Of a stretch of DNA of 54,951 bases, positions 11,286 through 49,620 are shown piece after piece. A program made the translations under genes and the position numbers. Each line of letters opens with the position of its first letter. Position 1 is the stretch's first letter. Origin of the DNA: Candidatus Gastranaerophilales bacterium (GTDB lineage Bacteria; Cyanobacteriota; Vampirovibrionia; Gastranaerophilales; Gastranaerophilaceae); the NCBI GenBank assembly GCA_944323685.1, contig CALUTJ010000019.1, positions 1 to 54,951 of the forward strand. Direction: 5' to 3'. A model generated the notes under the pieces. The model searched no databases, was not told the origin of the DNA, and was given only the letters and a program-made list of their open reading frames with translations.

Positions 11286-11314
11286 AAAAGACAAGACTAA
11301 GAATCTTGTCTTTT
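11286..11314. terminator. bidirectional terminator overlapping the end of lgt
   Basis: An 11-bp perfect stem, AAAAGACAAGA at 11286-11296 with TCTTGTCTTTT at 11304-11314. It lies between the convergent 9340 gene (+) and lgt (-). The minus-side arm is part of the last codons of lgt. Confidence 0.85.
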
Positions 11315-12217
11315 CTTTTGGCAAATTACCAGTAGACCGATAATACCAATTAGAATCATTACAGCAGAAGCAATATGTGCAACTTCTAACCCATAAAAAT
11401 TACGTACGCTGTCTAAACGGCAGGTTTCTATAAAAATTCGTCCCGCAGAGTACAAAATCAGATAAGCGAAAAAAATTACGCCGTCTTTTGTGTTTTTTTC
11501 TAATCTAGTGTCGCCGTTGTAGCCTCGAGTCTTCGAGCCGTCACTGCTCACCTTTTCAATGGGACACTCCAAAAATTCGTTCACGTCGCTTTGCTCCTTA
11601 TCGCGAATTTTTCCCGGACAAATTTTTCTGATTACAAAAAGAAGTACGAAAAATACCAGTATGTCCCATATAGATTCATACAAAAATGTCGGGTGAAAAT
11701 ACTCAAAATTTTCATATCCGCAGGGTCTGTACGCAGCAGGTATAAATAATTTTATAAAGGGGATTGAACAGGGTTTGCCGAAGGCTTCACAGTTAAAATA
11801 ATTGCCGAACCTGCCTATTGCCTGTCCTACGCAAAGACCGTAAGCAAAAATATCGGAATATTTTAAAAAATTTATATTTTTAATTTTGGAATAAATTAAT
11901 CCGCTTATTACACCGCCTAATATTCCGCCGTGTATAGACATTCCTCCATGCCAGAGTGCCAAAATTTCCGGGGCATGCCGGCTGAAATAAGGCCAATCCA
12001 TAAACACGTAATAAAGCCTGGCTCCGAGTATTGAGCATAAAATTATAACGGGCAGAATGTCTACAATAATTTCCGTATCAATATCTTTGTAGAATTTTTT
12101 TGCTATCGCATGCATAACGAAAATTCCTGCTGCGATAGCGCAGAACATTATCAAACCGTAATAATGAATATCAAAACCGTTAATGCTTACAAGAACAGAT
12201 GACGGCGGGGATTGCAT
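11297..12217 (-). CDS. lgt: prolipoprotein diacylglyceryl transferase with in-frame repeat insertion
   Basis: A 306-residue integral membrane enzyme that transfers diacylglycerol from phosphatidylglycerol to the lipobox cysteine of prolipoproteins. Typical motifs are the H-G-G-M-S-I-H96-G-G block, the Lgt signature GRFGNYFN (135-142) and HPTFLYES (175-182). About 41 residues (about 200-240) are encoded by a copy of the interspersed palindromic repeat (11499-11621). They fall in the loop between two membrane segments, at FVIRKI and before the GVIFFAYLILYS helix. Outside the insert the protein has normal length and motifs, so it is probably functional. It is translationally coupled to the upstream TPR lipoprotein gene (TAATG overlap). 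Confidence 0.95.
   Translation of the reverse strand: MQSPPSSVLVSINGFDIHYYGLIMFCAIAAGIFVMHAIAKKFYKDIDTEIIVDILPVIILCSILGARLYYVFMDWPYFSRHAPEILALWHGGMSIHGGILGGVISGLIYSKIKNINFLKYSDIFAYGLCVGQAIGRFGNYFNCEAFGKPCSIPFIKLFIPAAYRPCGYENFEYFHPTFLYESIWDILVFFVLLFVIRKICPGKIRDKEQSDVNEFLECPIEKVSSDGSKTRGYNGDTRLEKNTKDGVIFFAYLILYSAGRIFIETCRLDSVRNFYGLEVAHIASAVMILIGIIGLLVICQKKRQDS
11499..11621. repeat. interspersed palindromic repeat, copy B, inside lgt
   Basis: A 123-nt copy, exactly 41 codons. It is read in frame on the minus strand as part of lgt, with no stop codon. Hairpins: CTCGA/TCGAG at the centre of the left half, closed by GTGTC/GACAC; and AAAAATTCGT with GCGAATTTTT in the right half (one wobble pair). 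It differs from copy D by about 10 bases. On the coding strand it is followed by A7-CAC, a tail shared with copy D, which has A10-CAC. Confidence 0.93.
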
Positions 12218-21627: not shown

Positions 21628-21784
21628 AAAAACTCTTTTATTATCTAATATAGTGTCGCAGTTGCCGCCTCGAGCCTTCGAGCCGTCACTGCTCACCTTT
21701 TAAATGTGACACTCCAAAAATTCGTTCACGTCGCTTTGCTACTTATCACGAATTTTTCTCGGACACATTAATAAAAGAGTTTTT
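21628..21784 (+). terminator. terminator split by a repeat insertion
   Basis: AAAAACTCTTTTATTA (21628-21643) and its exact 16-base complement TAATAAAAGAGTTTTT (21769-21784), followed by more T. The 125 bases between them are repeat copy C. The arms are not part of the repeat, because other copies lack them. The element therefore seems to have inserted into the loop of the GH73 gene's terminator. Confidence 0.8.
21644..21766. repeat. interspersed palindromic repeat, copy C (intergenic)
   Basis: A 123-nt copy like B and D. In the frame that is open in lgt and the GIY-YIG gene it has two stops (GAG to TAG, GAA to TAA), as expected without coding constraint. The right-hand hairpin AAAAATTCGT/ACGAATTTTT is perfect. 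Confidence 0.93.
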
Positions 21785-37577: not shown

Positions 37578-37985
37578 TCATTGCCCGTTCAGGGTGTTTT
37601 TTTTTTCTAATCTAGTGTCGCAGTTGCCGCCTCGAGCCTTATAGCCGTCACTGCTCACCTTTTCAATGTGACACTCCAAAAATTCGTTTACGTCGCTTTG
37701 CTCCTTATCACGAATTTTTCTCGGACAATTTAGACAACACAACTCTTCTTTTTGTTTTCGGGTTAAGGTTTTTATGCGGCATTCTTCTTTCATTGCTTCT
37801 GATTTTGTATCAAATTCTTTTATATAAACCATTTTTAAAGGTTTGTGCGTTCGTGTGTATTTTGCGGCAAGTCCTGCCTTGTGTTTTTCAAAACGTTTTT
37901 CGGGGTCATCTGTATAACCGCAGTACAGCTTGTTGTCTACGGTTAAAATAAGGTATGTGTAAAATTTTTTGTCAGCGTTTTTCAT
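37578..37985 (-). CDS. GIY-YIG domain protein with a repeat-encoded C-terminal tail
   Basis: A 135-residue protein. Residues 8-83 are a small GIY-YIG nuclease-type domain (UPF0213/YhbQ-like): Y-T-Y-L-I-L, L-Y-C-G-Y-T-D, then K-R-F-E-K-H-K and A-M-K-E-E-C-R-I-K. About residues 86-127 come from a copy of the interspersed palindromic repeat read in frame, with N-T-L-N-G-Q as a short end. A normal YhbQ-type protein would stop near residue 85. The tail is therefore new and the domain itself looks intact. The dus gene is one base upstream on the same strand. Confidence 0.9.
   Translation of the reverse strand: MKNADKKFYTYLILTVDNKLYCGYTDDPEKRFEKHKAGLAAKYTRTHKPLKMVYIKEFDTKSEAMKEECRIKTLTRKQKEELCCLNCPRKIRDKEQSDVNEFLECHIEKVSSDGYKARGGNCDTRLEKKNTLNGQ
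37606..37728. repeat. interspersed palindromic repeat, copy D, inside the GIY-YIG gene
   Basis: A 123-nt copy read in frame on the minus strand without stops. On the coding strand it is followed by A10-CAC; copy B has A7-CAC, a 3-base difference. One hairpin arm (TCGAG) is changed to TATAG here, while the long right-hand stem is perfect. Confidence 0.93.
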
Positions 37986-49442: not shown

Positions 49443-49620
49443 TCTAATCTAGTGTCGCAGTTGCCGTCTCGAGCCTTCGAGCCGTCACTGCTCACCTTTG
49501 CCTTCTTTTTCGGCTGAACTGTGGTGAAACCTGAAAAATGGCTTCACTATGTGAACAATGTGACACTACCAAAATTCGTTCACGTCGCTTTGCTCCTTAT
49601 CACGAATTTTTCTCGGACAA
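49443..49620. repeat. interspersed palindromic repeat, copy E (long form)
   Basis: A 178-nt copy. It matches the 123-nt form at both ends but has 55 extra bases in the centre with its own hairpin, GTGAA-A-CC with GG-C-TTCAC. 55 is not a multiple of three, so this form could not sit in a gene in the same way. It lies between two coiled-coil genes. The remainder of the 463-base gap (49621-49786) shows nothing that I can name. Confidence 0.93.

Follow-up and report, generated by a model that had tools for sequence, protein, structure and literature searches.

The segment of about 41 residues found within the prolipoprotein diacylglyceryl transferase (Lgt) of this Gastranaerophilales bacterium is very probably the translation of a selfish, non-autonomous palindromic element belonging to the family Gastranaerophilaceae, and the enzyme that carries it is most likely active, with the insert being neutral to mildly harmful. 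The gene lies in the stretch analysed here, the 54,951 nucleotides of contig CALUTJ010000019.1 (the window). An initial annotation, made from the letters of the window, had described an in-frame mobile repeat in a loop of Lgt at about residues 200-240. Copies across the genome and alignment with relatives bear out this description, and the coordinates given were within one base of those in Table 1. Besides the copy in lgt, the window has four further copies of the element, one of them partial.

Table 1. Copies of the palindromic element in the window and the lgt gene that contains one of them
Feature	Position	Strand	Evidence
Partial element copy at contig start	1..80	+	repeat match
lgt, prolipoprotein diacylglyceryl transferase, 306 aa, repeat in frame	11297..12217	-	profile matches; ORF
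Short form (122 bp) of the palindromic element within lgt, residues 200-240	11499..11620	-	genome consensus match
Short element copy, intergenic, between arms of terminator-like inverted repeat	21644..21765	-	repeat match
Short element copy, in frame with 3' end of GIY-YIG ORF (37578-37985), C-terminal tail	37606..37727	-	repeat match
Long (177-bp) element copy, third hairpin of 55 bp, intergenic	49443..49619	-	repeat match

The lgt ORF is matched by Pfam LGT and by NCBIfam TIGR00544, each in two stretches, as would be expected of an interrupted domain, and the TIGR00544 score is 192 bits against a cut-off of 118.9. Residues 200-240, which read CPGKIRDKEQSDVNEFLECPIEKVSSDGSKTRGYNGDTRLE, are preceded by FVIRKI and followed by KNTKDGVIFFAYLILYS. 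The underlying DNA matches the 122-bp genome consensus of the element at 94% identity (E 3.6e-49). Compared with relatives, the net gain of the gene is 123 bp (41 codons), with 122 bp plus 10 nt in the window and 9 nt in the relatives between the same flanks. None of the 29 aligned Lgt proteins from relatives carries the insert, and at most three residues fall in its columns; the objection that the segment might be an ancient feature of Lgt therefore fails. A frameshift, which could have inactivated this copy, is not present in lgt, and the flanking motifs are as intact as the initial annotation had stated: HGGMS at 90, GRFGN at 135, and GRIFIE at 259, which correspond to the catalytic HGG, GRxGN, and the Arg of TM6.

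In the genome of this bacterium (2.31 Mb, 44 contigs) the left end of the element occurs 143 times and the right end 140 times. Reversed-pattern controls gave 0-2 matches, which excludes chance. Forty-nine copies out of about 140 were aligned and studied in detail, and they occur chiefly in two forms: a short form of 122 bp, beginning with TGTCCGAG and ending with CTAGATTAGA, and a long form of 177 bp with an extra 55 bp that has its own hairpin. Of the six reading frames, the short-form consensus leaves one open and the long-form consensus none. Two genomes of sister species, G006 and G016, have a further form of 164 bp, in which a 42-bp module sits in the tip of hairpin 1 and the frame is open, as well as forms of 176, 195, and 237 bp with other modules, which are not open. 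Since there are several forms with different modules, the element consists of a constant frame and exchangeable hairpin modules. Stops interrupt the frame used in Lgt in many intergenic copies and in entire subfamilies. Copies from genome G018 (e.g. L084:1501-1622) belong to a subfamily whose consensus has a TGA in an otherwise open frame, and some species have similar ones; in such subfamilies the coding-compatible form has its natural control.

The hairpins were assessed on 21 diverged copies, from the genus and the family, down to about 70% identity to the consensus. Across these copies, 96.8% of cells in the two helices are paired, and there are 49 two-sided changes, where shuffles give 14.9 and slid controls 0-8. 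These compensatory changes show that the hairpins are under selection as structures, either in DNA or in RNA. Near the ends of the element there is only a short imperfect inverted match (TGTC/GACA). A search of Rfam was negative both for the window and, at E <= 0.5, for the element itself.

Of the 23 genomes of the genus, 20 contain the element. In an order-wide sample of 192 genomes it was confined to the family Gastranaerophilaceae and occurs in 5 of 45 genera, in a diverged form in the four further ones. No match to it was found among IMG/VR viral contigs (searched with an exact 24-base pattern), in a phage collection, or in a plasmid collection, and none of the literature searched describes elements of this kind in Gastranaerophilales.

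Filled and empty sites could be compared at four loci in G006 and G016 and at one site in multicopy sequence. At these five sites the net change equals the length of the element within about 1 bp, with no duplicated target; likewise, a search for target-site duplications in the flanks of 81 copies gave nothing convincing, with two 7-bp matches only, against 0.17 expected. In G016, one copy (L139, on C28) lies inside a sequence of which G006 has two copies and G016 another, all lacking the element (L158, L159, and L162). In the left flank (e.g. window positions 11621-11624), 76 of 81 copies have an A at position -4, which may be the target rule of some enzyme, and the flanks are AT-rich on both sides. 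Insertion into hairpin loops was considered as a general rule and rejected, with 4 of 96 copies in a strong flanking hairpin and an average of 0.3 in shuffles. The copies in such terminator-like loops (window 21644-21765, L049, L048, and L124) exceed the shuffles without being the rule.

No transposase in this genome could be tied to the element. Y1 transposases gave three matches, two of which have an interrupting stop, and none was seen to be flanked by the element on both sides; the intact one is at a contig start, its left flank being outside the DNA read. Position relative to the element thus gives no support to a Y1 transposase as the mover. No larger, autonomous element with the same ends was found among the matches listed, and the counts of the two ends are about equal (143 and 140). 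The element would be one that spreads selfishly, mobilised by an enzyme supplied in trans.

Most copies studied fall outside genes. All clear insertions that span a gene position are in sense orientation and in frame 0. In addition to lgt, the genome has a second genic insertion in a membrane protein (C12:65724), whose orthologues lack the insert, and two less certain ones in a protein without a Pfam match and in a kinase-like ORF. DUF2142 proteins have two insertions in G006, and in G007 a UbiA protein and a large membrane protein have one each. Within the window, the GIY-YIG ORF has its domain at residues 7-80 of 135 and gains about 49 additional residues by running through the element copy. 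Three candidate ORFs (C3:81635, C12:40206, and a gene in L129), whose apparent starts are within the element or shortly before it, were left out of the count since they more likely start just downstream of the element. Genic insertions would be expected to persist only if the open form lands in sense orientation, in frame 0, and in a tolerant loop.

The dihydrolipoamide dehydrogenase gene (lpd) has an insert at the same junction, within Pfam Pyr_redox_2, in both G006 and G016. It is the 122-bp form in G006 (L108:3027-3148) and the 164-bp form in G016 (L138:701-864), both in frame, and the flanks of the two sites are identical at 587 of 600 and 572 of 600 positions. The 42-bp inner module preserves the frame while extending the peptide from 41 to 55 residues. 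The presence of two forms between the same junctions suggests that inner modules may be exchanged in place, for example by gene conversion. With the insert present, lpd has a dN/dS of 0.11 at a dS of 0.13 between the two species. By this measure the gene is still under purifying selection, and this parallel case is the strongest evidence that a protein keeps its function with an insert.

A broader proposal is that this modular hairpin family of Gastranaerophilaceae moves by an undescribed route, marked by the A at -4, by cassettes swapped in place, and by targets left unduplicated, and that its short form, having become coding-compatible, is a regular source of new loops in conserved enzymes of this lineage. 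As a whole this proposal is speculative and rather improbable.

In lgt, the insertion site maps between K221 and M225 of E. coli Lgt, i.e. between TM5 and TM6. In the E. coli enzyme, TM5 has E202 and TM6 has Y235 and R239, and their catalytic network reaches the periplasmic head domain (PMC4728403). Since the network extends in that direction, the TM5-TM6 turn is probably cytoplasmic, and the insert would lie in this loop, away from the catalytic residues, which agrees with the cytoplasmic side proposed initially. This turn would be the tolerant loop of lgt, and with the insert placed there the single copy most likely still gives an active enzyme. The tolerance claimed for the insert is likewise supported, albeit by inference.

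The main rival is that lgt is a young pseudogene, inactivated by the insertion. A charged insert of 41 residues adjoining a membrane helix could upset folding, the segment being hydrophilic (GRAVY -1.2) with 9 acidic and 7 basic residues, and this Lgt has a terminal branch of 0.124, somewhat above the 0.064-0.079 of its neighbours. However, the frame is intact across 306 codons, the catalytic motifs are kept, and the insert is at a loop position. The dN/dS is also low, at 0.07-0.12 against the five nearest relatives, although this value averages mostly over the time before the insertion and is no proof of activity after it. No other full-length Lgt match was found in the genome, and deletion of lgt is lethal in most Gram-negatives (PMC4728403). 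Together with the parallel insertion in lpd, which has been kept under selection in two species, these points make inactivation improbable.

It is also quite improbable that the element peptide is a selected module, a donor of domains or linkers that benefits host proteins. The same frame is used repeatedly in several proteins, and the inner module in lpd retains it, as such a role would suggest. Only one frame is open, however, and selection against stops accounts for the common frame, which is largely forced and reflects a filter rather than a preference. In the Lgt copy, five residues depart from the consensus and one further codon is changed silently; therefore its frame is conserved and its sequence is not. 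These substitutions look like drift and not conservation, and they could also mean slow decay. The peptide has no match in Pfam, the majority of copies lie outside genes, and stops occur in intergenic copies and throughout subfamilies. Since the peptide drifts without constraint, the earlier suggestion of a 'domain donor' is unsupported; 'linker' is apt as a description of the result and not as a selected role. An assembly artefact, in which the repeat was misjoined into lgt, can practically be set aside: the element is repeated and the window contig begins in a partial copy, but both flanks share one frame and are orthologous to a single intact gene in relatives, any longer reads would span the whole 122 bp, and the copy has private substitutions and a net gain of exactly 41 codons.

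The reading of the Lgt segment as a selfish palindromic element has parallels in other bacteria. By description, and not by sequence, the element behaves like the Rickettsia palindromic elements (RPE), which, together with those of Wolbachia, are likewise 100-150 bp long, form hairpins, are dispersed, and have a frame fused into conserved protein genes (PMC2229807, PMC10969869). Here, correspondingly, the short form is 122 bp long, copies of all forms number about 140, stem-loops are formed, and in-frame genic insertions are absent from orthologues. The present element differs from RPE in its phylum, in the single open frame of its short form, and in its modular inner hairpins. RPEs of R. conorii terminate in a CGTC tag (PMC3733652), whereas this tag is absent from the ends of the element given above. 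A guanylate kinase of Rickettsia that carries an RPE is reported to be translated and to remain active, its affinity for the substrate being altered (PMC2229807).

Correia/NEMIS elements of Neisseria come in a short form of 107 bp, whose open frames are fused to ORFs, and a long form of 155 bp, which has stops and lies almost only between genes (PMC2229807). The split between the 122-bp and 177-bp forms resembles this short-open and long-closed division; however, Correia elements duplicate their target and carry terminal inverted repeats of 24 bp, and neither feature was found here. QMITE1/2 of Coxiella burnetii are small dispersed elements that overlap ORFs, sometimes in frame (PMC5896051), but in genes of known function they are at 3' ends, whereas the insertions here are in internal loops of conserved enzymes. 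As in REP/RAYT systems, short dispersed palindromes and Y1-type transposases are present in one genome; unlike them, the element has no GTAG/CGTC tag, is much longer, and was not seen to flank a Y1 gene. The BOX elements of pneumococcus are modular, with hairpin units in varying combinations, and the present element has a similar modular hairpin build, although the host differs and the likeness is one of description.

It is in Rickettsiales that palindromic repeats which code for protein are best known, and the same behaviour is now seen in gut relatives of cyanobacteria. Since close species differ by single insertions, the element offers a comparative system for following how selfish DNA enters essential proteins and for asking if the peptide gained in this way ever becomes useful.
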